A stretch of 34,861 bases of DNA from a bacterium. GTDB lineage: Bacteria; Patescibacteriota; Microgenomatia; UBA1406; GWC2-37-13. The stretch is taken from NCBI GenBank assembly GCA_021825445.1, contig JAKAHA010000010.1, forward strand, positions 1 to 34,861, given 5' to 3'. Below are positions 106 through 33,804 of this stretch, piece after piece (position 1 is the stretch's first letter; each line of letters begins with the position of its first letter). The translations under genes and the position numbers were made by a program. Under the pieces are notes generated by a model that saw only the letters and a program-made list of their open reading frames with translations, had not been told where the DNA came from and ran no database searches.

Positions 106-175
106 AGATGAATATTATAACATACACCTATATCGTCAAAAAAATACTTTCCTAACAATCCGAAATACTACTTTT

Positions 176-219
176 GTAGGTTATAAACCATTGACAGGTA
201 ATTTTAATTTATATATTCT
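176..219 (+). promoter_or_regulatory. Promoter and operator-like dyad of first XRE gene
   Basis: A near-palindrome GTAGGTTATAAACCA (176-190) abuts a consensus promoter, TTGACA at 191-196, 17-nt spacer, TATTCT at 214-219. The -10 box ends 10 nt before the ATG at 230, so the transcript has almost no leader. A perfect version of the dyad (GTAGGTTATAACCTAC) occurs at 1272-1287 before the paralogous XRE gene, so this is probably the regulators' shared operator (inference). Confidence 0.6.
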
Positions 220-229
220 CTACACCAGC

Positions 230-451
230 ATGCGTGAAAATTTTTTCTACCATAATTTAGGAAAAATAATCATTCGTCTGCGAGAAAAAAAGAGGCTGAC
301 GCAAGAACAGCTTTGCCTTCTTTGTGATATTGATCGTTCATATTTTTCACGAATTGAAAAAGGACTGGCAAATCCATCAATCAGAACCCTTTATAAACTA
401 AGTCGAGTCCTAAGAATAAAAATATATGATTTATTCAAAAGAGCCACCTAG
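230..451 (+). CDS. XRE-family helix-turn-helix regulator (copy A)
   Basis: A 73-residue protein that is essentially one Cro/C1 (XRE) helix-turn-helix domain: LTQEQLCLLCDIDRSYFSRI forms the HTH around residues 23-42, followed by the family signature EKGLANPSIRTL. I chose the ATG at 230, not an upstream in-frame codon, because the promoter box ends at 219 and because the paralogue at 1322 aligns from the same point with the same length. It is about 40% identical by eye to that paralogue. A dyad shared by both promoters suggests auto- and cross-regulation. Its stop codon overlaps the first base of REP copy 1. A stand-alone XRE repressor of this size could regulate the adjacent RayT transposase, but that is inference. 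Confidence 0.85.
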   Translation: MRENFFYHNLGKIIIRLREKKRLTQEQLCLLCDIDRSYFSRIEKGLANPSIRTLYKLSRVLRIKIYDLFKRAT

Positions 452-489
452 CCACCCTTGTACTAACCTCCGAGGTTAGTACAGCTTGG
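451..489 (+). repeat. REP palindrome, copy 1 (5' flank of RayT)
   Basis: Starts GCCACCCTTGTACTAACCTC. Positions 459-470 and 472-483 are perfect 12-nt inverted arms around a single C at 471. The distal half is degenerate (ACAGCTTGG). It lies between XRE copy A and rayT. Related copies are at 1158-1198 and 28756-28796. Confidence 0.85.
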
Positions 490-496
490 AAAAAAT

Positions 497-1141
497 ATGA
501 AAAGAACAAATAGATTTATTGAGGGCGAAATTTATCACGTATTCAATAAAAGCATCTCTAAATATGGTATTTTTAATGATCTTGATAATGGTCAGAGGTT
601 TTTAAATACTTTTCAGCACTATAATAGTCGATTATCTTTGAAAAGCTACTCTGATTTTAATAAAAGAAAGAAATTTAATTATGGAAATATTATAAATCCA
701 ATAGAAAATAGTTATTGTAAAGTTTTAACTTATTGTATTATGCCGGACCACTACCATTTTTTACTTAAAATATTAAAAAGCGATTCACTTTCAAAATTAA
801 TTAGTGACATTGAGAATAGCTATACTCGTTTTTTTAATATTAAATTTGAACGTCGGGGTCCTTTATGGCAAAATTGTTTTAAAGTTGTTAAAATTCGGTT
901 TGATGATCAGTTATTACGTGTGAGCAGATATATTCATCTTAATCCGATTGTAAAACGTTTGGTAGATAGGCCAGAAGACTGGATTTTTTCATCATATAAG
1001 GATTTTGTAACAAATAAAAATGTTTTAAAAAATATTAAGGAATTAAAAGTACAAAAAATCATAGAGTATAAGGAATTTGTTGAAAATATCGATAATTATT
1101 CAAAAGATTTAACAAATATCAAAAAATTAATGTTAGAATAA
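497..1141 (+). CDS. rayT: REP-associated tyrosine transposase (RayT, Y1/HUH)
   Basis: 214-residue IS200/IS605-type Y1 transposase of the TnpA-REP (RayT) class. The HUH metal motif is HYH at residues 85-87 in the signature YCIMPDHYHFLL. A likely nucleophile is Tyr109 in ENSYTRFF. The typical RayT C-terminal stretches RRGPLWQ and SRYIHLNP are present. Family members nick single-stranded DNA at structured REP palindromes and are domesticated single-copy genes rather than free IS elements. The gene is flanked on both sides by palindromes of the expected type (451-489 and 1158-1198), and a third copy lies 27 kb away. It sits between two paralogous XRE genes. The A-rich GGAAAAA before the ATG is a weak ribosome site. 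No disruption is seen. Confidence 0.92.
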   Translation: MKRTNRFIEGEIYHVFNKSISKYGIFNDLDNGQRFLNTFQHYNSRLSLKSYSDFNKRKKFNYGNIINPIENSYCKVLTYCIMPDHYHFLLKILKSDSLSKLISDIENSYTRFFNIKFERRGPLWQNCFKVVKIRFDDQLLRVSRYIHLNPIVKRLVDRPEDWIFSSYKDFVTNKNVLKNIKELKVQKIIEYKEFVENIDNYSKDLTNIKKLMLE

Positions 1142-1157
1142 TTTATAGCTTGTTACA

Positions 1158-1198
1158 GCCACCCTTGTACTAACCTCGGAGGTTAGTACAAGGGTGGC
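1158..1198 (+). repeat. REP palindrome, copy 2 (3' flank of RayT), perfect
   Basis: Perfect inverted repeat with 20-nt arms: GCCACCCTTGTACTAACCTC at 1158-1177, a single G at 1178, and the exact reverse complement at 1179-1198. It begins 16 nt after the rayT stop. It may also act as a hairpin ending rayT transcripts, though no T-run follows directly. Confidence 0.9.
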
Positions 1199-6321: not shown

Positions 6322-6344
6322 GGAGCGATGAATCGCTCCACTAC
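6322..6344. repeat. Palindromic repeat family B, partial copy
   Basis: GGAGCGATGAATCGCTCC followed by ACTAC; half of a two-hairpin element also found at 8343-8401 and 20419-20488. It supplies the TAG stop codon of nadC (minus strand, 6341-6343). Confidence 0.8.
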
Positions 6345-7279
6345 ATAAAACTTAAAGATATATCTAGGGCTTTGGAAGAATGAGTTAGGGCGCCAAGGGA
6401 GATGACGTCCGCTCCGACTCGATCATAGTCACAAATATTATTTTCGTTAATCCCACCTGAGAGTTCAAAGACAATTTTCGAATTTGTTTTTTGCTTCCTA
6501 ATTATTTGAATTGTCTTTAAAGCGTCTTGAGGCTTAAAGTTATCAAGCATTATTATCAGTGGGACAGAAATATTTATTTTAAAATAATAATTTGCCAACG
6601 AAATTGCTTCTTTCTCCGTCTCAATCTCAATTTCAAACGGTTTTTTGACTTGAGATTTTTTAATAAAATCCAAAATATATTTTTGACTTTCCGCCCTTTT
6701 TACTCCAAATTTATTAGCCCATAGTTCGATATGGTTATCTTTGATAAGAATTTCATCAGAAAGAGATAGTCGGTGGGTAAGACCGCCACCGACCGATACG
6801 GCTTTTTTATCAAATAAGCCCCATAAAGTCTTTCGAGTTGAAGCAATATTTGTTTTTAAATTATTTACTATGATTATGGAATTTGTGAAAGTTGCAATGC
6901 CAGACATTCTCTGTAAAATATTTAAAATCGTCCTTTCATATTTTAAAATTTCCAGTGGGTCACCGGTGAGTTGCATCAATAAATCTTTATTATTTATTTT
7001 TGTTCCATCCTTGATATTTTGTTTAACTTTCAAATGAGTTTTTTTGTTAATTAGAAAAACCACTTCTTCAATTCCGGCAACGATCCCAGATTGTTTGGAA
7101 ACAATATTTGCTGTTACATTTTTATATTTCCCGGAAATTATTTTTGAAGTGATATCGTTTTCGACGAGATCGTTTTTGACTTGAAAATCGAAAAGATCGA
7201 GACAGGTTTGAGAGTAGACTTTGTTTTTGATGTTAAGAAGAGAAGACTTGTTGAAGTATTGATTAACTATACTGTTCAT
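6341..7279 (-). CDS. nadC: Nicotinate-nucleotide diphosphorylase (carboxylating)
   Basis: 312 residues. NadC (quinolinate phosphoribosyltransferase) joins quinolinate to PRPP, releasing CO2, to give nicotinate mononucleotide. The catalytic and substrate-binding core is intact: ASTRKTLWGL, then GGGLTHRLSLSDEILIKDNH, a close match to the family consensus. The C-terminal barrel motifs IMLDNF and FELSGGI follow. It is longer than the usual 270-290 residues, mostly at the N-terminus. It is the downstream partner of nadA on the minus strand, separated by a copy of repeat family C whose end abuts this start codon. Its stop codon lies in repeat family B. Confidence 0.95.
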   Translation of the reverse strand: MNSIVNQYFNKSSLLNIKNKVYSQTCLDLFDFQVKNDLVENDITSKIISGKYKNVTANIVSKQSGIVAGIEEVVFLINKKTHLKVKQNIKDGTKINNKDLLMQLTGDPLEILKYERTILNILQRMSGIATFTNSIIIVNNLKTNIASTRKTLWGLFDKKAVSVGGGLTHRLSLSDEILIKDNHIELWANKFGVKRAESQKYILDFIKKSQVKKPFEIEIETEKEAISLANYYFKINISVPLIIMLDNFKPQDALKTIQIIRKQKTNSKIVFELSGGINENNICDYDRVGADVISLGALTHSSKALDISLSFM

Positions 7280-7280
7280 A

Positions 7281-7399
7281 TAATTTCTAATTACTAATTA
7301 TTCTAATTGATCTAAATAATTTCCAATTTTTAAATCCCAATTGGTAATTGTAGTTTTGGCATTTTTTAGAAATTAGGCTAATTAGGTCAATTAGAAATT
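7281..7399 (-). repeat. Repeat family C, copy 1 (5' of nadC)
   Basis: AT-rich inverted repeat. Read on the minus strand it begins AATTTCTAATTGACCTAATT, has a middle section with TTGGGATTT, and ends GATCAATTAGAATAATTAG and TAATTAGAAATT just before the nadC ATG. The far end overlaps the last codons of nadA, giving its C-terminal ISN and stop. Sister copies at 21779-21889 and 30563-30670 also abut start codons in this orientation. Confidence 0.85.
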
Positions 7400-8578: not shown

Positions 8579-10051
8579 ATGAAAAACAACTTCGATTACA
8601 TAATCATCGGCTCGGGTATTGCTGGACTTACAACGGCTTTAACACTAGCGGATTCGGGTAAAGTCGCCATATTTACAAAAAAAAATCCTTCAGATTCTTC
8701 GACTAACCTAGCTCAAGGCGGAATGGCGGCGATGGTGGGAGGGGAAGATCGCAAAGAATGGCACATTGAAGACACGATGAAGGCGGGGGATTTTCATAAT
8801 AAAAGAGAGGCGGTCAAACTTCTTGTTGATGATAGTCAGGAAGCATTACTTTGGTTAAAAGAACAAGGAGTTTTATTTGATGTGAAGCCTTCTCTTGAAG
8901 CAGGGCACAGATTACCACGAATTTTTCATACGACCGATTTTACCGGAGCTGATATTCAAAAAACGTTGCTTAAAAAAATTTCTGAAAATAAAAATATTAA
9001 GATTTTTAAAAATACTTTAGCGGTTGATTTAATTGTGCAAAAAAATATTTGTCACGGCATTTATGTTTTGACTGAAGAAAATAAAATTGTTCCGTTTTTT
9101 TCTAAATCTGTTGTTTTAGCAACCGGAGGATCCGGTCAAGTTTACCAGTGGACGACAAACCCAACAGTTGCCACCGGAGACGGGTTGGCTATCGCAATCC
9201 GAGCTGGAGCAAAAACTTTAGATCTTGAATTTGTCCAGTTTCATCCGACTGCTTTTAAGGCAAAAATTTTACCTTTATTTTTGTTATCAGAGCGACTTCG
9301 AGGAGAAGGGGCGAGGTTGGTAGATGATAAAGGTCATAGGTTTGTTGATGAACTTCTTCCACGGGATATTGTAGCTCGGGCTGTTTTTGAAAAACAAAAA
9401 ACCAGTGAAGTTTTTTTGACAATGGCTCACTTGGATAAAAAAGAGATTATTAAAAAACTGCCAAATATTTATAAAAAACTAAAAACTTATGGCTATTATC
9501 TTACTCACGATCGTATACCAGTTACGCCAGCGGCTCACTATCAATGTGGAGGAATCATTACTGACCTTAATGGAAAAACGTCCATAAAAAATTTATATGC
9601 CGTGGGAGAGGTGGCGGCAACCGGGGTACATGGGGCAAATCGACTGGCGTCAAATTCGCTTTTGGAAGGAGTGGTGTACGGGAAACGGATTGGAAAGTTT
9701 ATTGTGTCATCCCCGCGGAGGCGGGGATCCAGTGTTTCCAATTTGATTCAGAGAAGTAATTTTAGTCTGGATTCCCTCCTTCGAGGGAATGACAGTAAGA
9801 CATTAAATAAAATAAAAACAAATATCCAAAAACTCATGTGGGAAAAGGTGGGGATTGTAAGAACAAAAAAAGAATTGTCAGGAGCTTTAAAAACTTTTAA
9901 ATCATACAAAAAACAACTTGAAAAAATTAAAAAAAAACGCGGAATTTCATATGAATTAATTGAAGTGCTTAATTTATCCGAAGTTGCACTCGCTATAACT
10001 CAATATGCTTTAAATCGTCCCAAAAGTCTTGGCGCTCACTACTTAAGATAG
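8579..10051 (+). CDS. nadB: L-aspartate oxidase with in-frame palindromic insertion
   Basis: 490 residues. NadB oxidises L-aspartate to iminoaspartate, the substrate of NadA. N-terminal FAD-binding Rossmann motif IIIGSGIAGLTTALTLADSG; then NLAQGGMAA, the active-site regions ATGGSGQVY, EFVQFHPTAF, LRGEGARLVD and LLPRDIVARAV; then HYQCGGI and the conserved GANRLASNSLLEG. The C-terminal helical domain (LMWEKVGIVR) is also present. Between these, residues about 377-405 (SSPRRRGSSVSNLI onward) are encoded entirely by a copy of palindromic repeat A (9706-9793) read in frame. They replace a normally variable linker, so the enzyme is probably still functional. It is divergent from nadA and nadC. The stop codon overlaps the convergent SHOCT gene by 9 bp. 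Confidence 0.95.
   Translation: MKNNFDYIIIGSGIAGLTTALTLADSGKVAIFTKKNPSDSSTNLAQGGMAAMVGGEDRKEWHIEDTMKAGDFHNKREAVKLLVDDSQEALLWLKEQGVLFDVKPSLEAGHRLPRIFHTTDFTGADIQKTLLKKISENKNIKIFKNTLAVDLIVQKNICHGIYVLTEENKIVPFFSKSVVLATGGSGQVYQWTTNPTVATGDGLAIAIRAGAKTLDLEFVQFHPTAFKAKILPLFLLSERLRGEGARLVDDKGHRFVDELLPRDIVARAVFEKQKTSEVFLTMAHLDKKEIIKKLPNIYKKLKTYGYYLTHDRIPVTPAAHYQCGGIITDLNGKTSIKNLYAVGEVAATGVHGANRLASNSLLEGVVYGKRIGKFIVSSPRRRGSSVSNLIQRSNFSLDSLLRGNDSKTLNKIKTNIQKLMWEKVGIVRTKKELSGALKTFKSYKKQLEKIKKKRGISYELIEVLNLSEVALAITQYALNRPKSLGAHYLR
9706..9793. repeat. Palindromic repeat family A, copy 2, inside nadB
   Basis: 88 bp, the same length as copy 1, beginning GTCATCCCCGCGGAGGCGGG and ending TCGAGGGAATGAC. Contained completely in the nadB reading frame without stop codons. 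Confidence 0.92.
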
Positions 10052-12678: not shown

Positions 12679-12692
12679 AAATATATTTTTAT

Positions 12693-12814
12693 GGGTAGTA
12701 AACCCTGGAATTGATGGGTCGTAAACCCTGAAATTGATGGGTCGTAAACCCTGAAATTGATGGGTAGTAAACCCTGAAATTGATGGGTAGTAAACCCTGA
12801 GCTTGTCGAATGGG
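12693..12814. repeat. 23-bp tandem repeat array, about 4.7 copies
   Basis: Unit begins GGGTAGTAAACCCTG and ends AATTGAT; starts at 12693, 12716, 12739, 12762 and 12785. Units two and three have GTCG for GTAG. The last unit runs into a 20-bp family E repeat (12795-12814). GGGTN4AAACCC in each unit is a small dyad. It lies just upstream of the GIY-YIG gene. There are no spacers, so it is not CRISPR. Confidence 0.9.
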
Positions 12815-18013: not shown

Positions 18014-18601
18014 ATGATTTCGATAAAAAATATGGGAAGACAATATTATTCTTACAGACCGGTAGCCGAGAATTATAAAAAAATAAGAATATCTTCTTTA
18101 AAAAGGGATGGATATCTTGCTCAGTGGTATAGCGGCATTATCAGTTGGGGTTGTGGTCCAGGCGAATATAAAGAAAGCATAAAGATAGAATGCTCTATTA
18201 ACCCTATGTATCCAAATATAAAGTTTATTTATAATCAGATAAGTTATCTTGTTAGTCTTACTACAACGCCTTGTCATTTTGGTGGTAAAAGATATTGGTT
18301 TGTATGTCCTTTGACTATTAACGGTAGGGACTGCGGAAAAAGAGTTGGCGTACTTTATAAGGGAAATGATTATTTCGGTTGTCGACACTGTTTTAATTTG
18401 ACCTACCAATCAAGGAGGGATAATCCTACAGTTAAAGCTGTGTTGTTTCTCATTGATTATGAGAAAAATATTGAAAAATTAACCACAAAATTAAAACGAT
18501 ATTTTTATAAAGGAAAAGCAACAAGAAAACTCATGACACTTAATAAGATTGAACACAAAGTATTAAAAGCATATAAAGTTGTTAAGACGTTTAATTCTTG
18601 A
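18014..18601 (+). CDS. Zinc-ribbon protein of unknown function
   Basis: 195 residues. The central part has TTPCHFGGKRYWFVCP, DCGKRVGVLY and FGCRHCFNLTYQSRR. Cys106, Cys117, Cys124, Cys140 and Cys143 (approximate positions) can form a treble-clef or zinc-ribbon site. This recognisable family of hypothetical proteins is common in mobile elements and always carries the FxCxxCxxLTYxSxR signature. A role in DNA binding is likely but unproven. An alternative start is the ATG at 18032 (MGRQYYSY). It overlaps the upstream end of the recombinase ORF region by a few bases. Confidence 0.7.
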   Translation: MISIKNMGRQYYSYRPVAENYKKIRISSLKRDGYLAQWYSGIISWGCGPGEYKESIKIECSINPMYPNIKFIYNQISYLVSLTTTPCHFGGKRYWFVCPLTINGRDCGKRVGVLYKGNDYFGCRHCFNLTYQSRRDNPTVKAVLFLIDYEKNIEKLTTKLKRYFYKGKATRKLMTLNKIEHKVLKAYKVVKTFNS

Positions 18602-18623
18602 CATCGTTTATAAAGGGATTATC

Positions 18624-20294
18624 ATGGATGTAAGTATAAAAATAAATATGGATAGATATATTTTCTATAAACGCAAGTCGTCTGATTCCGAGGACCGGCA
18701 AATCTTAAGTTTGGAATCACAAGATAGGACAATTAAGGAAACTACTACCGGCTTTAATGGTTTTAAGATAATATCCGATTACGAAGAATCCAAATCGGCT
18801 AAAGCTCCCGGACGACCAAAGTTTAACGAGATGTGTGAAAAGCTGGAAAGAGGCCTAGCAAACTACATTATCTGTTGGCAATTAAACCGGTTGGCAAGAA
18901 ATCCTGTCGACGGCGGTCGGATAATTTGGTTGGTTCAAAATTACGGAGTAAAAATCGTGACTCCTTCAAAAACCTATGGTATTGATGACATACTTTTAAT
19001 GTATGTTGAGTTTGCCATGAGTAATCAGTTTATTAACGATTTGAAAAAATCGACAACCAGGGGTTTAAACGATAAACTTCATGCTGGTATTGCTCCAATC
19101 AGGGCGCCTATAGGATATTACAACGATGTTACTAAAAAACAAGGATTAAGGGATATTTTAGTCGATGATTTACGTTTTCCTCTTGTTAGAAAAATGTGGG
19201 ATTTATTTTTATCGGGCAATTATTCCGTACCGAGAATTTTAGATATGGCCACCAACCAATGGGGATTGAGGCAAAGAAATGGTCGTCCATTTTCACGGAC
19301 TCAAGCATTTAGACTCTTCAGAAACGTCTTTTATACCGGAAAGTATGAGTATAAGGGAGAAATCCATATAGGCGTCCACCAACCAATGATCACGATTGAC
19401 GAATATGATAAAGCCCAAAAAATATTAGGTAATAATGGTGGTTTTAGGCTTTCCAAACATACTTTTGCTTTCAATAATAAGATTATTCACTGTACTTGTG
19501 GGTCAGGCGTTACTGCTCATGAAAGATATAGAAAAGTGTGTTCAAAGTGTCATCATAAATATAATGCTGTAATAAATAGCCTATGTCCAAAATGTAAAAC
19601 ACCTGCACCGGAAGAAACATGGTATGGTTGCCTATACCATTGCACGAGAAAAAAGAACTCAAAGTGTACACAGCCATCAGTAAAATTGAAAGATTTAGAA
19701 GAACAATTTGACTATTATATTTCATCGCTCACTCTACCCAGTGAGTTTATAGATTGGGTATTGGTAAGGCTACGGAAGGCTCATGAGGAAGAAAGTCGAA
19801 GCCGAGATACGATCAATATCAATTTACAGGCAACACTCAACGCAACTACCCGCAAATTAGACAATCTTTTGTCCAAATATCTCAGTGAGGAAAATAAAAC
19901 AGGCGAAATAATAAGCGATGAAGAGTATAAAAGACAAAAATGGTTATTGGCCGATCAGAAAACGAAGATGGAAGAATCTTTAAAAGGATTTAGTAAGAGA
20001 CAGGATGATTGGCTGACTATCGCCGAAAAAGCCTTGGATTTTGCTCGTACAGCCCAAGAAAAGTTTAAAACGGCCAGTAAAGAAGAGAAACGGGAGATGG
20101 TTTTATCTTTTGGATTGAACCTGACTTTGGAGAATAGAAAATTATATCTTGACCTACTAAAACCATTCGGGAAGATAAAAGAAGCGGCTGATAGACTAAG
20201 AGATCCTTCAGAAAAGATTGAACCCGTACAACGGATAGACACAAAGGGCCAAACCTTCTATTTTGACTCTGCGAATCCCATTTGGGGTGACTGA
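18624..20294 (+). CDS. Large serine recombinase (site-specific integrase)
   Basis: 556 residues. Resolvase catalytic domain (about 10-150): FYKRKSSDSEDRQILSLESQ with the nucleophile Ser19 or Ser20, then WQLNRLARNPVDGGRI with the catalytic Arg. A recombinase (DNA-binding) domain spans about 170-290 (GLNDKLHAGIAPIRAPIGYY onward). A zinc-binding domain has Cys pairs HCTCGSG, CSKCHHK, CPKCKTP and CLYHC. A long coiled coil follows (about 385-470). Start: ATG 18624 preceded by AAAGGG; the TTG at 18579 is rejected. The final residues IWGD and the stop TGA are encoded inside tRNA-His (antisense), so the gene reaches into the attachment core. It presumably integrates and excises the 12345-20300 element. 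Confidence 0.9.
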   Translation: MDVSIKINMDRYIFYKRKSSDSEDRQILSLESQDRTIKETTTGFNGFKIISDYEESKSAKAPGRPKFNEMCEKLERGLANYIICWQLNRLARNPVDGGRIIWLVQNYGVKIVTPSKTYGIDDILLMYVEFAMSNQFINDLKKSTTRGLNDKLHAGIAPIRAPIGYYNDVTKKQGLRDILVDDLRFPLVRKMWDLFLSGNYSVPRILDMATNQWGLRQRNGRPFSRTQAFRLFRNVFYTGKYEYKGEIHIGVHQPMITIDEYDKAQKILGNNGGFRLSKHTFAFNNKIIHCTCGSGVTAHERYRKVCSKCHHKYNAVINSLCPKCKTPAPEETWYGCLYHCTRKKNSKCTQPSVKLKDLEEQFDYYISSLTLPSEFIDWVLVRLRKAHEEESRSRDTININLQATLNATTRKLDNLLSKYLSEENKTGEIISDEEYKRQKWLLADQKTKMEESLKGFSKRQDDWLTIAEKALDFARTAQEKFKTASKEEKREMVLSFGLNLTLENRKLYLDLLKPFGKIKEAADRLRDPSEKIEPVQRIDTKGQTFYFDSANPIWGD

Positions 20295-20358
20295 CGGGAT
20301 TTGAACCCGCAACATTCGCCTCCACAGGGCGACGCTCTACCGTTGAGCTACAATCACC
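20283..20358 (-). tRNA. tRNA-His (GUG)
   Basis: Cloverleaf with anticodon loop CUGUGGA (GTG) on a TCGCC/GGCGA stem, D-arm GCTC/GAGC and T-arm GCGGG/CCCGT. The extra G at -1 opposite C73, diagnostic of tRNA-His, is encoded, and the CCA end is encoded (20283-20285). Its 3' end is the attachment site of the integrative element and is duplicated at 12345-12360. Confidence 0.95.
20285..20300. repeat. Right attachment-site repeat
   Basis: GGGTGACTGACGGGAT inside tRNA-His, identical to 12345-12360. It also contains the stop codon of the recombinase gene (20292-20294). Confidence 0.75.
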
Positions 20359-21115: not shown

Positions 21116-21775
21116 ATGGAAATTAAATATTTGGGTCATTCGTCATTTTTAATCAAAACTAAAACTGCTAGAATTGTGACCGACCCTTTTGACCCAGAAA
21201 TGGTTGGTCTAAAATTTCCAAAAACAGAAGCCGATGTCGTCACTATTTCTCATTCTCATAAAGATCATAATTTCACAAAAAATATAGTTGGAGTCGGCGG
21301 AGCAATCCCTTTGATGATTGATATGCCTGGAGAATTTGAAAAGTTAGGTGTCAGAATGTTTGGTTTTCAATCTTTTCATGACAAGGTAAAAGGTGCCGAG
21401 CGTGGTGAAAATATTATGTATAAATTTGAGGCAGAGGGAATTTCTGTCCTTCATTGTGGAGATTTGGGTGTCGTTCCTGAGGAAAATTTTCTTGAATTAA
21501 TTGGCGAAGTCGATATTTTGATGGTTCCGGTTGGAGGAAATTATAGTCTTTCGGCAGATGAGGCGATTGATTTGGTTAAAAAAATCGAGCCATCTATCGT
21601 GATCCCGATGCACTATAATTCTGAAAAACTAAATCAAACAAATTTTGGAAAATTAACTCCGGTTTCTGAATTTACAAAAAAGTTTGGATTGGATAATCCT
21701 GTTACTGAACCGAAATTAGTCTACAAAAAAGAAGAGTTAGAAGCTGAGATGAGGGTGGTGGTATTGGAAATATAA
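21116..21775 (+). CDS. MBL-fold metal-dependent hydrolase (UPF0173-like)
   Basis: 219 residues. Metal-binding HxHxDH motif in ISHSHKDHNF (about 44-53), followed by LHCGDLG (about 119-125) and a final His in IPMHYNSE (about 162-169). N-terminal MEIKYLGHSSFLIKT is typical of the UPF0173/YtkL-type beta-lactamase-fold hydrolases. These cleave phosphodiester, lactone or similar bonds with two zinc ions; the substrate is not known. It lies between the tRNA-linked membrane protein and dnaB, the latter separated by repeat C. Confidence 0.9.
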   Translation: MEIKYLGHSSFLIKTKTARIVTDPFDPEMVGLKFPKTEADVVTISHSHKDHNFTKNIVGVGGAIPLMIDMPGEFEKLGVRMFGFQSFHDKVKGAERGENIMYKFEAEGISVLHCGDLGVVPEENFLELIGEVDILMVPVGGNYSLSADEAIDLVKKIEPSIVIPMHYNSEKLNQTNFGKLTPVSEFTKKFGLDNPVTEPKLVYKKEELEAEMRVVVLEI

Positions 21776-21778
21776 AAT

Positions 21779-21889
21779 TGATCTAATTAACCTAATTATT
21801 CTAATTAATCTAAATAATACCCAATAACCAAAACTCAAATTTGGACATTTTTTAGGTCAATTAGTAATTAGAAATTAGGAATTAAATTA
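21779..21889 (+). repeat. Repeat family C, copy 2 (5' of dnaB)
   Basis: Plus-strand orientation: begins ATTGATCTAATTAACCTAAT, has AAATTTGGACATTTTTTAG in the middle and ends GGTCAATTAGTAATTAGAAA just before the dnaB ATG at 21890. It lacks a 9-nt unit (AATAATTAG) present in the right arm of the other two copies. Confidence 0.85.
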
Positions 21890-23221
21890 ATGGCTACTTC
21901 CGAAGGCTTTAAGACTCCTCCCCATGATCTTGATGCTGAGAAATCAGTATTGGGGGCAGTCTTAATCGATTCTACCTCCATCAATCTGGTTGCAGAATTT
22001 TTAAAAGCGGAACATTTTTACTCTCGTGAACATCAGTTGATTTATGGTGCGATGATCACCCTTTTTGAGCGTCAACAACCAATTGACGTTGTGACAATCC
22101 AAGACGAACTTAAAAAAACTGATTCTTTAAAGCAAATTGGTGGAAAAAATTATTTATCAGATCTAATCAACGCCGTTCCGACTTCCGCCTATATCGAACA
22201 ATACGGTCGAATTGTCAAGAATCATTTTGTCAAAAGACGTCTCATTCAAATGTCATCTCGACTGGTTGAAAAATCTTTTGACACAAAAGGAGATGTTAAA
22301 AAGTTACTCGACGATGCCGAGACCGAGATATTTGCTCTTTCCCAAGAACATCTTCATAGAGACTTTATTGAACTTAAAGAAGTATTGGCGGAAAGTTTTG
22401 AACGTCTTGAGGAATTTGTCAAAAAAGGTTCTCACCTTCGAGGAGTCTCAACTGGTTTTGTCGATCTTGACTCGAAGCTTGCCGGAATGCAGGATTCAAA
22501 TTTACTCATTCTTGCAGCCCGCCCAGGAATTGGAAAGACGACAATGGCTTTAAATATCGCTCTTCAAGCGGCAACAAAAAACAAAACTCCGGTAGGATTT
22601 TTTTCACTTGAGATGAGTAAGGAAGAATTGGTCGACCGTCTGCTTGTGGGGCAAGCAGATATTGATGCTTGGAGACTTAAAACGGGAAGGTTGTCTGAGG
22701 ACGATTATAAAAGGCTTACTGAGGCGATGGGTGATCTGTCTGAGGCTCCGATATTTATCGACGATACACCAGGGAGCTCAATTTTGGAAATGAGAACAAA
22801 AGCTAGAAAACTTAAAATGGAAAAAGGGATTAAACTTTTGATTGTTGATTATCTGCAGCTAATTGACGCTGGAAAAAGATTCGATTCAAGAGTGAATGAA
22901 GTTTCCTACGTCTCTCAGAATTTGAAAAATTTAGCTCGTGAACTTAAAATTCCGGTACTTGCTTTATCACAATTGTCTCGAGCGGTTGAACAGCGGGGGA
23001 CTCGCAAGCCCCAACTTTCAGATCTTAGGGAGTCAGGGAGCATCGAACAGGATGCCGACGTTGTCATGTTTTTATACCTTGAGCAGGAAACGGAAGATAT
23101 TTTGGACCAAAATAAAAAAATAATTAAGCTCTACATTGCCAAACACCGCAACGGCGCAACGGGCGAGATGGATCTTCTTTTCCGCGGCGACCGCGTAAAG
23201 TTCTACAGTGTGGAGAAATAA
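21890..23221 (+). CDS. dnaB: Replicative DNA helicase
   Basis: 443 residues, the standard DnaB length. N-terminal helical domain opens PPHDLDAEKSVLGAVL (about 7-22). The RecA-like motor has Walker A ARPGIGKTT (about 211-219), Walker B LLIVDYLQLI (about 320-329) and the arginine-finger region KHRNGATGE near the end. No intein is present. DnaB unwinds DNA at the replication fork as a homohexamer with primase. The start codon abuts repeat C, and no Shine-Dalgarno sequence is seen; translation may depend on the AT-rich leader. Confidence 0.95.
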   Translation: MATSEGFKTPPHDLDAEKSVLGAVLIDSTSINLVAEFLKAEHFYSREHQLIYGAMITLFERQQPIDVVTIQDELKKTDSLKQIGGKNYLSDLINAVPTSAYIEQYGRIVKNHFVKRRLIQMSSRLVEKSFDTKGDVKKLLDDAETEIFALSQEHLHRDFIELKEVLAESFERLEEFVKKGSHLRGVSTGFVDLDSKLAGMQDSNLLILAARPGIGKTTMALNIALQAATKNKTPVGFFSLEMSKEELVDRLLVGQADIDAWRLKTGRLSEDDYKRLTEAMGDLSEAPIFIDDTPGSSILEMRTKARKLKMEKGIKLLIVDYLQLIDAGKRFDSRVNEVSYVSQNLKNLARELKIPVLALSQLSRAVEQRGTRKPQLSDLRESGSIEQDADVVMFLYLEQETEDILDQNKKIIKLYIAKHRNGATGEMDLLFRGDRVKFYSVEK

Positions 23222-25896: not shown

Positions 25897-25932
25897 ATGT
25901 GCGGCGGATGCAGTAAACCAAAAGGAAAGTAA
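25897..25932 (+). CDS. Possible 11-residue CxxC micropeptide
   Basis: MCGGCSKPKGK and stop, 4 nt after the copA stop. CGGC is a typical soft-metal ligand motif and the position inside a copper operon is suggestive. It is too short to judge by codon statistics and could be chance; the downstream palindromic repeat starts 3 nt after its stop. Confidence 0.35.
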   Translation: MCGGCSKPKGK

Positions 25933-25935
25933 CGT

Positions 25936-26022
25936 GTCATCCCCGTGTAGACGGGGATCCAGTCGATAATCACATTTTAAAAAGGTAATTATAGTCTGGA
26001 TTCCCACCTTCGTGGGAATGAC
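25936..26022. repeat. Palindromic repeat family A, copy 3
   Basis: 87-bp two-hairpin element (GTCATCCCCGTGTAGACGGG ... TTCGTGGGAATGAC) filling the gap between the micropeptide and the next gene, whose ATG is 3 nt beyond. Confidence 0.9.
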
Positions 26023-26025
26023 ACT

Positions 26026-27354
26026 ATGAAATTCAATAAAAAAACTTTGCCCATTAAAGGCATGCACTGTCCGTCTTGTGAGATTTTAATAACGGACAAA
26101 TTTAAGGAAATGTCAAATGTGTCAGTTGTTAAACCAAATTTTAATAAACAGGAAGCTGAAGTTTATTTCACTGGACATTTGGACCAAAAGGCTTTAAACA
26201 TGAAAATCCAGCAATTTGGATATGAAATTGGAGACCCACCTACTACCGCCACGGCGGGATTCGGCGAGGCGAGGAAAAATATTGTTGAAGCATTTTTGAT
26301 TGCGGTTGGTTTGGGGCTAATATACTTAATTGCAAAAGAAATTAATATTATTCCGAATATTAATATCACTGGGAATTTGAATTTATTAACTGTTTTGTTT
26401 TTAGGCTTAGTTGCTTCAATTTCGACTTGCATGGCGACATCTGGAGCACTATTTTTGTCAACAATCGGCAAAAAAACAAACAGTTTAAAACAAGCAATTT
26501 ATTTTAGTTTGGGTCGAATTATTTCTTACGCTATTTTTGGTTTTATTGCTGGACTAATTGGTAGCGTCATTATTACTAATCTAAAATTTGGATCGGGATT
26601 AACATTATTGGCAGCAGTTTTTATGATTCTTCTTGGACTGGACATGTTAAAAATTCTTTCTTTTGCCTCAATCGTTCCATATGGAGTCACTTCAAATATT
26701 TTTAGAAAATTAGAACATTTCTTGATTAAAGATCCACATAAATCGGCCTTTTTTTTAGGAGCGATTACCTACTTTTTACCTTGTGGATTTACTCAGGCGA
26801 CTCAGGTTTATGCGTTGGGACTTGCTTCGCCTTTACAAAGTGCCCTAACCATGGCTGTCTTTGCCGCGGGAACCGCTCCAGCAATAATATTTATTGGTTC
26901 ATTAAAAGGCTTGTTAAAAAACACAATTTACCAATATTTTATGAAGGTTGTAGCTGTTGGCGTGTTAATTTTGGGTTTTTATTATATTTCAAATTTTCTG
27001 GCGATCTATGGGATTGGTTCAAATTGGACAAATAAGTCTAATAAGACTAGCTTGCTTGTGCAAGCAAGTGCGGTCAATTTGGTCGATGGTAAACAAATCA
27101 TCAATATGGCTGTAATAAATGGTGGGTATTCTCCTAATTTTCTTACAGTTAAAAAAGGGATACCAGTTAAATGGGTCATTGACGGAAAAAATGTTTTTGG
27201 TTGCCAGGGATATTTTGTCGTACCAACTTTAGGTATTTCTAAAGCACTTTCAGAGGGAGAAAATATTATAGAATTTACACCACAAGAAACGGGGATAATC
27301 AACTTTTCCTGTGGAATGGGAATGTATCGGGGAAGAATACAAATTATTGATTAG
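26026..27354 (+). CDS. HMA - TauE/SafE-like membrane - cupredoxin fusion
   Basis: 442 residues in three domains. (1) An HMA metallochaperone domain (about 8-72) with GMHCPSC (Cys15, Cys18). (2) A TauE/SafE or DsbD-like membrane domain (about 85-320), with STCMATSGALFL and YFLPCGFTQATQVYALGLAS, each carrying a Cys in a helix. (3) A C-terminal cupredoxin (about 345-442), with VFGCQGYFVVP and NFSCGMGMYRG holding copper-ligand Cys and Met. It probably hands Cu(I) from the cytosol through the membrane to the outer cupredoxin domain, or reduces it, acting with CopA. A short palindromic insertion (CCGCC/GGCGG) encodes TATAGFGEA near residue 75. It is the last gene of the copper operon. Confidence 0.85.
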   Translation: MKFNKKTLPIKGMHCPSCEILITDKFKEMSNVSVVKPNFNKQEAEVYFTGHLDQKALNMKIQQFGYEIGDPPTTATAGFGEARKNIVEAFLIAVGLGLIYLIAKEINIIPNINITGNLNLLTVLFLGLVASISTCMATSGALFLSTIGKKTNSLKQAIYFSLGRIISYAIFGFIAGLIGSVIITNLKFGSGLTLLAAVFMILLGLDMLKILSFASIVPYGVTSNIFRKLEHFLIKDPHKSAFFLGAITYFLPCGFTQATQVYALGLASPLQSALTMAVFAAGTAPAIIFIGSLKGLLKNTIYQYFMKVVAVGVLILGFYYISNFLAIYGIGSNWTNKSNKTSLLVQASAVNLVDGKQIINMAVINGGYSPNFLTVKKGIPVKWVIDGKNVFGCQGYFVVPTLGISKALSEGENIIEFTPQETGIINFSCGMGMYRGRIQIID

Positions 27355-28004: not shown

Positions 28005-28080
28005 TAGTATGGATTCCCGCGTCCGCGGGAATGACATGTCTTGCGTTGTTTGTCATCCCCTTGAAGAAGGGGATCCAGTC
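28005..28080. repeat. Palindromic repeat family A, copy 4, halves exchanged
   Basis: The right-hand hairpin (TATGGATTCCCGCGTCCGCG...AATGAC, to 28035) comes before the left-hand hairpin (GTCATCCCCTTGAAGAAGGG, 28052 on). The order is reversed relative to copies 1-3, a circular permutation. It lies between PAP2 and the HAD gene. Confidence 0.8.
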
Positions 28081-28101
28081 TATTAATTACACTTTTTAAT
28101 T

Positions 28102-28746: not shown

Positions 28747-28755
28747 CTTATTCTT

Positions 28756-28796
28756 GCCACCCTTGTACTAGCCTCCGAGGTTCGGACAGATTTGGC
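28756..28796 (+). repeat. REP palindrome, copy 3 (isolated)
   Basis: GCCACCCTTGTACTAGCCTC then CGAGGTTCGGACAG, ending TTTGGC: the same start as the copies at RayT, 27 kb away, with the degenerate distal half like copy 1. It lies between the HAD gene and the convergent orphan at 28813. Confidence 0.82.
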
Positions 28797-28812
28797 AAGA
28801 TGTAATTAAATA

Positions 28813-29978: not shown

Positions 29979-30007
29979 ATTATACCACTATCCTATAGTA
30001 GTTTCAA
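29979..30007 (-). promoter_or_regulatory. Leaderless promoter of the secreted orphan
   Basis: On the minus strand TTGAAA (30007-30002), 17-nt spacer, TATAAT (29984-29979), then 5 nt to a GTG start at 29973. A predicted leaderless mRNA. Confidence 0.68.
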
Positions 30008-30558
30008 TTGGAATAAATAAATATTTTATTCTTCCCTTGAATGACTCTATCGTTTTTTTTAAGACTTTTGATTGGATACATATAGCTCACCACTTTAAAC
30101 TTTGATATTTGGAGTTTGATATTTGAAATAGTTTTTTCCAAAAACCAGGGGGAGATGTAGAGATAGAAGGTTGGTAGAGACAAGGCATTGCCTTGTCTGT
30201 ACAAATGAGAAGAAAAATTCATTTTAAAAATATCGTCACGAATGATTTTTATATTTTTTCCATTTGGATGAAATAATCTACGAAGATGAAGGATAAAAAT
30301 CAAAATCGGATTGATTTCGACGGCGATAAACTGGGTGTTCAAACCATTTTTATATGCTTTTCTAGCTGCTTTAAAAATCACAATTCCGTCTCCCGCCCCG
30401 AGATCTATTATGATCTGATTATTTTTTAAATTCAAAGCCTTGATAATTAGAGAAATATCAGCGGGCTGAGTTGGGAAGTAGGGGATGGGAGATAATTTTT
30501 TCGAAGAAAAAAGCAGGATTATTGCAATTAAAACCCCTACTAAAATATATATTAACAT
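30004..30558 (-). CDS. SAM-dependent methyltransferase with membrane anchor
   Basis: 184 residues. A hydrophobic N-terminus (about 1-18) is followed by the Rossmann-fold motif IIIDLGAGDGIVIFKA (motif I) and FIAVEINPILIF (motif II with acidic Glu), a class I methyltransferase core. The substrate is unknown. A palindromic repeat (30174-30202, family D) encodes LYRQGNALSLP in frame, and another repeat-derived stretch encodes ISNIKLQISKFK. Repeat C lies immediately upstream of the ATG. Confidence 0.82.
   Translation of the reverse strand: MLIYILVGVLIAIILLFSSKKLSPIPYFPTQPADISLIIKALNLKNNQIIIDLGAGDGIVIFKAARKAYKNGLNTQFIAVEINPILIFILHLRRLFHPNGKNIKIIRDDIFKMNFSSHLYRQGNALSLPTFYLYISPWFLEKTISNIKLQISKFKVVSYMYPIKSLKKNDRVIQGKNKIFIYSN
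30174..30202. repeat. Repeat family D, copy 1, inside methyltransferase gene
   Basis: 29 bp: GTAGAGACAAGGCA plus its near-inverted complement; the perfect palindrome of this family is at 32014-32041. Read in frame as part of the protein. Confidence 0.88.
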
Positions 30559-30562
30559 TTAT

Positions 30563-30670
30563 AAATTTCTAATTACTAATTATTCTAATTGACCTAAAAA
30601 AGTTCCAAATCCCAATTTATACATTGGTCATTATTTAGATCAATTAGAAATTAGGTTAATTAGGTCAATT
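30563..30670 (-). repeat. Repeat family C, copy 3 (5' of methyltransferase)
   Basis: On the minus strand it begins AATTGACCTAATTAACCTAA, has AAATTGGGATTTGG in the middle, ends GGTCAATTAGAATAATTAG and TAATTAGAAATT a few bases before the ATG at 30558. Same orientation as in nadC and dnaB. Confidence 0.85.
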
Positions 30671-30684
30671 TTGTTCTTTATCAT

Positions 30685-33540: not shown

Positions 33541-33593
33541 TAAGTCAAGAGATATTATAACAATTGGGTGGAAGATAAGAAATAGAAATAAAT

Positions 33594-33620
33594 GTCATCC
33601 CCGTGAAAACGGGGATCCAT
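33594..33620. repeat. Palindromic repeat family A, half copy
   Basis: Only the left hairpin (GTCATCCCCGTGAAAACGGG with GATCCAT). It forms the last codons of the 33595 gene on the minus strand. Confidence 0.85.
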
Positions 33621-33804
33621 GTTTTCGGAAGGGGTGAACCATCTTAAATATCTTTAAATTAAAATAAACGAGGACTCCAAAAATTAATAGAAAAATTGTC
33701 ATATAGGGAATTTTAAAAATTAACATGTCGATAAGTATAAACACACAAAGACTGTTTGAAATAAAAAATATTTTTACAACAATTGTCCAGAGATCTTTTT
33801 CCAT
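33595..33804 (-). CDS. Small membrane protein with repeat-derived C-terminus
   Basis: 69 residues, two hydrophobic helices (about 7-28 and 33-53, very Ile/Phe-rich). The last residues HGSPFSRG and the stop come from the half copy of repeat A, so the original C-terminus was probably replaced. Family unknown; a chance ORF cannot be excluded. Confidence 0.5.
   Translation of the reverse strand: MEKDLWTIVVKIFFISNSLCVFILIDMLIFKIPYMTIFLLIFGVLVYFNLKIFKMVHPFRKHGSPFSRG

Follow-up and report, generated by a model that had tools for sequence, protein, structure and literature searches.

Family C, a short hairpin element at tight gene junctions, and its probable origin from an S23-encoding element resembling rRNA intervening sequences

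The window analysed here is the whole of contig C5, a stretch of 34,861 bp from a 1.02-Mb, 33-contig genome (G000) that is 97.5% complete. All three copies of an inverted repeat, Family C, that an initial annotation had placed in the window are present, and their spans, as set by a profile, are listed in Table 1 with the neighboring genes. As that annotation had also claimed, one end of the repeat lies close to an ATG in each case, at a distance of 2–6 nt. The end ..AATTAGnnAATTAGAAATT stands 6 nt 5′ of the dnaB ATG (21890), 2 nt 5′ of the nadC ATG (7279, − strand), and 4 nt 5′ of the methyltransferase ATG (30558, − strand). The last residues of nadA and its TGA stop (7387–7389) are inside the element; the protein ends in ..K-ISN-stop, of which ISN-stop is element-encoded.

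Table 1. Family C copies in the window, the parts of the dnaB copy, and the adjoining genes.
Feature	Position	Strand	Description and evidence
Family C, no ORF	21775..21883	+	Fills the gap between the MBL-fold hydrolase gene and dnaB; nhmmer 80.6 bits
B-end arm of dnaB copy	21776..21815	+	9-nt units AATTGATCT AATTAACCT AATTATTCT AATTAATCT; sequence, unit table
Variable core of dnaB copy	21816..21848	+	CCAAT..TTTGG inner hairpin; alignment of copies
A-end arm of dnaB copy	21849..21883	+	AATTAG units; sequence and alignment
Family C	7282..7395	−	Between nadA and nadC; nhmmer 58.0 bits, ORFs
Family C	30563..30672	−	Between the divergent methyltransferase-like gene and purA; nhmmer 84.0 bits, ORFs
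MBL-fold hydrolase (Lactamase_B_3), 5′ neighbor of dnaB copy	21116..21775	+	Pfam PF13483; stop 21773–21775
Replicative helicase DnaB, 3′ neighbor	21890..23221	+	Pfam PF03796/PF00772
nadC (quinolinate phosphoribosyltransferase), 3′ neighbor	6341..7279	−	Pfam PF01729/PF02749
Methyltransferase-like protein, neighbor	30004..30558	−	Pfam PF00398, weak match
purA, neighbor of 30563..30672 copy	ATG 30716	+	ORFs

Elsewhere in the window, an IS200-like Y1 (RAYT-type) transposase gene at 497–1141 (window 451–1198) is flanked by long palindromes (GCCACCCTTGTACTAACCTCCGAGGTTAGTACA), of which a lone copy occurs at 28753–28801. A second repeat family, the REP-like GTCATCCCCGnnnnnnCGGGGATCCAGTC, occupies 2145–2260, 9700–9815, 25930–26044, 28046–28100, and 33588–33642; one of its copies (~9706–9793) is in frame within nadB and is read as ..SSPRRRGSS..DSLLRGNDS.. 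At 12688–12805, a 23-bp tandem repeat, present in almost five copies, lies in the N-terminal part of an ORF that by eye resembles a GIY-YIG nuclease. A large serine recombinase gene beside tRNA-His (18579–20357) suggests that an integrated element ends at this tRNA.

Family C is matched by a profile of aligned copies at 54 places in the genome, 48 of them at least 90 bp long and with a good score, and a chance origin is therefore excluded. These 48 near full-length copies are mostly ~100–130 bp, carry inverted repeats, and lack an ORF; in this multicopy form they have the traits of a MITE. The arms, annotated earlier as about 40 bp, are imperfect and measure ~35–45 bp each. They are runs of the hexamer CTAATT (or AATTAG) joined by linkers of 1 or 3 nt. 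The hexamer is the most constant part, and the linkers vary, those of 3 nt being found mainly at one end (B) and those of 1 nt at the outer part of the other (A). Units of 9 nt (AATTGACCT, AATTAACCT; AATT-GAC-CT, AATT-AAC-CT) make up the B end and units of 7 nt (AGAAATT, i.e., AG-A-AATT) the A end, which gives the element a direction. In the alignment of copies, the ends are AATTGACC/AGAAATT and the core, CCAAT..ATTGG, is variable. The long AT-rich hairpin that had been envisaged for the leader agrees with structure prediction: the predicted RNA fold far exceeds that of dinucleotide shuffles on both strands, with a median z of −4.35 on one and −3.7 on the other (n = 46), and a stem-loop formed by complementary ends is also a trait of rRNA intervening sequences (IVS). 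Three intermediate-length copies without an ORF (C7:18994–19185, C9:28091–28301, and C2:37391–37589) have an extra inner hairpin, AACCAAT../..ATTGGTTATTG, and perhaps form a separate sub-family.

The mobility that had been proposed for Family C is upheld by empty sites in sister genomes, by the ~50 copies, and by copies in many relatives. In sister genomes the element is missing between the same genes, which shows that it was inserted; at some of these empty sites the gap between stop and ATG is 1–3 nt. At the dnaB junction, Family C is present in G000 and G015 and a hairpin of other units (CAAAATT) in G011, and the site is empty in G008 (GAAATTTAA-ATT-ATGGCT, i.e., TAA-ATT-ATG) and in G004/G010 (GAAATATAATTATGGC). 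The dnaX junction is filled by Family C in G000, G015, and G017 and by another hairpin in G006; in G008, G014, and G016 it is empty, with 1–2 nt from stop to ATG. At junction C2:20972 (L107:3973–4120, orthologues L258–L264), five genomes have differing hairpin-like inserts, two have none, and a purine-rich GGAGG 5′ of the start is retained in most, making this junction a natural series for the study of hairpin turnover. At the dnaB and dnaX sites, no target-site duplication of fixed length is readable, both the ends and the targets being A/T-rich.

The placement of Family C was examined in genome stretches around its copies, with gene starts called by a simple script with a codon model. Once the element is removed, the gap that remains is at most 20 nt for 33 of the 44 copies with both neighbors called (~75%), as compared with 20% of the gaps without Family C and ~1% of other intergenic bases. 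Of the 11 exceptions, several reflect small genes that the caller missed directly beside the copies. The window methyltransferase gene is among these; the starts MAKNKP.. and MVRIKGGV.. beside Family C copies are presumably those of rpmI and rplT, and MPELPEV.. is taken to be that of mutM. In relatives, 41 of 50 copies have a gene no more than 30 nt away on each side. Family C often provides the stop codon of the 5′ gene, and the end opposite the start usually abuts or supplies that stop. Convergent stop-to-stop junctions are filled as tightly as stop–start ones.

Orientation relative to the start codon, asserted from the window to be always the same, shows a bias and is not constant. The end GGTCAATTAG..AGAAATT (A) points toward the start in 20 of 30 tandem copies in G000 and in 28 of 37 in relatives. 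The reversed tandem copies number 10 and 9, those called convergent 11 and 9, and those called divergent 3 and 4, respectively, and 4 further copies in G000 are at contig edges. Binomial p values are 0.10 for G000 and 0.003 for relatives, with orthologous insertions counted more than once. The randomness of orientation and distance that had been named as counter-evidence is seen in neither property: distance to genes is extremely tight, and orientation is about 70:30, in keeping with the non-random placement that had been suspected.

Purifying selection alone could yield such placement. If copies inserted at random and those hitting genes or regulatory regions were lost, with operon gaps harmless, a densely packed genome in which most insertions would be lethal should retain much the same pattern. 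The occurrence of many unrelated hairpin families at the same junctions in different species is what permissive sites would give, and other gaps are also hairpin-rich (25 of 54 with z < −3). Against this, most copies are concentrated in the tight gaps that make up so small a share of other intergenic bases, and the tandem copies show an orientation bias. Moreover, only 2 of the 12 REP clusters from these stretches leave gaps this tight (≤20 nt; Fisher p = 4e-4 against Family C), in a control that is small and drawn from regions picked for holding Family C. This suggests that tight placement is a property of Family C itself and not just an outcome of selection; random insertion followed by selection is the less probable reading of the data.

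It had also been proposed that the repeat is a mobile expression module or shared leader driving the 3′ gene. The commonest arrangement, with the A end beside the start codon, fits such a role, yet the genes that follow are unrelated to one another, their orthologues manage without the element, and copies at convergent junctions fit just as tightly. In the one copy tested, that of dnaB, there were 0 sigma-70-like promoters against a shuffle average of 1.7, and a search for intrinsic terminators gave none. Nor is a Shine-Dalgarno sequence supplied: a loose motif precedes 1 of 30 element-adjacent starts and 11 of 132 ordinary ones. Shine-Dalgarno sequences are nearly absent 5′ of called starts in general, yet a strong GGAGG does occur at a few junctions. 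The proposal does not hold in view of these results, and a leader function is very improbable. It is likewise improbable that the hairpin is retained at operon junctions for a role in the stability, processing, or termination of transcripts. The strong predicted fold of the element on either strand would suit such a role, as would the presence of copies at convergent ends and within r-protein operons, but terminator-like sites number 0 in the tested region, and the presence of the element at one and the same junction varies between close relatives, which argues against a conserved function.

A different origin is indicated by a longer copy at C20:15657–16119, in which an open 119-codon ORF lies between Family C arms. 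The ORF matches Pfam 23S_rRNA_IVP (PF05635) with an E value of 1.8e-10, above the cut-off, and the S23 profile also matches the solved structure 2rld. The junction that holds this longer copy has no insert in G008, whose two genes overlap there (ATGA), and is near-gapless in G014, G016, and G017. The closest homologues of this S23 ORF have the same arms on both sides in G010 (87% identity) and in G022, a member of another genus (~70%); the homologue in G016 (85%) is truncated at a contig end and has the same arm on the side present. PF05635 occurs in 22 of 30 relatives, G000 included, and in 0 of 14 control genomes. In a scan of GTDB, the Family C profile matches 44 of 80 S23 loci and 0 of 23 control loci; most of the matches immediately adjoin the ORF, and the matching loci come from many CPR phyla and from Ignavibacteria. 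The S23 ORFs of other lineages also lie between arms, which there consist of different 7/9-nt units. When left arms were compared with reverse-complemented right arms (n = 34), true pairs scored 24.7 and mismatched pairs 12.3. This kind of test, done by simple alignment, is weak on the 80 GTDB loci, since mismatched pairs often have the same unit, and the profile count is the better measure. The arms and the S23 ORF travel together. Rfam searches of the S23 loci returned tRNAs only. A 23-nt motif (TTTGTAGGTTATAARCGATTGAC, window 173–195), often found just 5′ of S23 elements, has 22 copies in the genome against 0 for its reversed control; it is conserved at one junction in six relatives and has no Rfam match.

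These loci bear on whether Family C is a classical MITE that depends on a DNA transposase acting in trans, for instance the Y1/RAYT-type enzyme of the window, with the S23 ORF as a passenger. Short length, high copy number, inverted repeats, and empty sites all fit a MITE, and an IS200-like Y1 gene is indeed at hand. That gene, however, has its own palindromes (451–483 and 1166–1198), unlike Family C, and a target-site duplication is not defined. At the loci examined, the ends of Family C are common to S23 elements and not to a transposase-bearing parent; S23, not a transposase, is found repeatedly between the arms, across phyla. A transposase-driven MITE is therefore an unlikely explanation. 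At the same time, we infer, rather than observe, movement by S23, because none of the loci examined showed a nuclease, integrase, or transposase between its Family C arms and S23 has no known catalytic activity.

S23 ORFs, whose proteins have no known function, occur in IVS of 23S rRNA, where the complementary IVS ends form a stem and RNase III removes the IVS (PMC4990558). Short inserts resembling IVS, and some IVP ORFs, occur in the rRNA genes of CPR bacteria (PMC11270868). In a congener, G007, the 23S rRNA has a hairpin of ~130 nt with CAAAATG-type units at RF02541 model position 583/584 (L268:3916–4079, − strand). Judging from the surrounding sequence, we take this position to be the tip of helix 25, a classical IVS site. 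Units of this type also make up the hairpin that fills the dnaB gap of G011, and rRNA IVS and the hairpins between genes thus seem to belong to a single kind of element. Copies of Family C itself were seen between protein genes and never in rRNA, and no S23 ORF was found within congeneric 23S rRNA. The insert in the 23S rRNA of G003 was considered as another unit hairpin and rejected; it is GC-richer and structured, and perhaps an intron.

Taken together, Family C is probably a short mobile element that arose by ORF deletion from an S23/IVP-encoding, IVS-like element, with fold-out of the hairpin keeping the junctions workable. The complete element would consist of a B-end arm (CTAATT units), the S23 ORF, and an A-end arm (AATTAG units). 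Both short and long forms insert between adjacent genes, which stay readable, and either edge of the element can give the stop of the 5′ gene and end a few nucleotides before the next ATG. The S23 protein may act on the hairpin arms and mobilize them, in trans for ORF-less copies; insertion may be directed to stop/start junctions, or copies may survive best there. The insert, predicted to form a long AU-rich hairpin, would then fold out of the mRNA, leaving the stop and the next start close together, as does an IVS at a helix tip in 23S rRNA, and insertion at a junction would be tolerated for this reason. No ribosome-binding site would be destroyed, because translation here hardly uses Shine-Dalgarno sequences. 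More tentatively, there could exist a widespread class of mobile elements, made up of an S23 gene, arms of 7/9-nt units, and ORF-less derivatives, specific for stop/start junctions and rRNA helix tips and moving by an S23-dependent mechanism. If so, S23/IVP would be the mobility factor of a transposase-free element.

The rRNA IVS themselves have been known for decades. Family C and its probable parent are read here as S23 elements of an IVS-like sort that lie outside rRNA, the short copies being MITE-like derivatives. In the open-access literature searched, which includes few subscription journals, only rRNA IVS and heptamer repeats came close; no S23-bearing intergenic elements or ORF-less derivatives are described there. 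With dozens of related insertions per genome, IVS movement and the role of S23 become countable and testable, and the system offers clean empty sites in sister species together with complete and ORF-less forms side by side. The origin of many hairpin-rich intergenic spacers in reduced CPR (Patescibacteria) genomes is thereby partly explained, and the data suggest that operons tolerate hairpins of ~100 nt at 2–10 nt 5′ of start codons.

Among known systems, diversity-generating retroelements encode Avd, an S23-like four-helix-bundle protein, and PF05635 also matches near a reverse transcriptase in G028. Reverse-transcriptase mobility of this kind was considered for Family C and rejected, as RVT_1 is absent from G000 and the 12 congeners searched (G001–G012). 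Correia elements of Neisseria and similar MITEs are ~100 bp, multicopy, and intergenic, with inverted repeats and no ORF. The MITE-type RUP of pneumococcus is of the same make (PMC3049150). Family C resembles both in all these features and differs from them in its S23-bearing parent, in which no transposase was seen, in the lack of a defined target-site duplication, and in its exact junction fit. The TAACTGA heptamers of marine Beggiatoaceae are likewise 7-nt units directly 5′ of starts, mostly forward and mostly without a ribosome-binding site; there, however, a single unit is repeated directly, without a partner in inverted orientation, and the repeats are not known to carry an S23 ORF (PMC4679880). 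REP/REPIN sequences are intergenic palindromes of 20–40 bp tagged by GTAG/CGTC and moved by a Y1 transposase (PMC3733652). One such system is apparently present in the window; Family C is similar in being intergenic and palindromic and differs in having no GTAG/CGTC tag, and the REP-like family of the window is placed differently. With the rRNA IVS of Coxiella, Leptospira, and Salmonella, Family C shares complementary ends forming a long stem, sporadic occurrence, a presumed tolerance since the stem folds out, and an optional S23 ORF, which is carried by its complete members (G000 C20, G010, and G022) and accompanied by arms at 44 of the 80 S23 loci counted above. In contrast to those IVS, it lies between protein-coding genes, is present in ~50 copies per genome, has arms of 7/9-nt units, and is mostly ORF-less.
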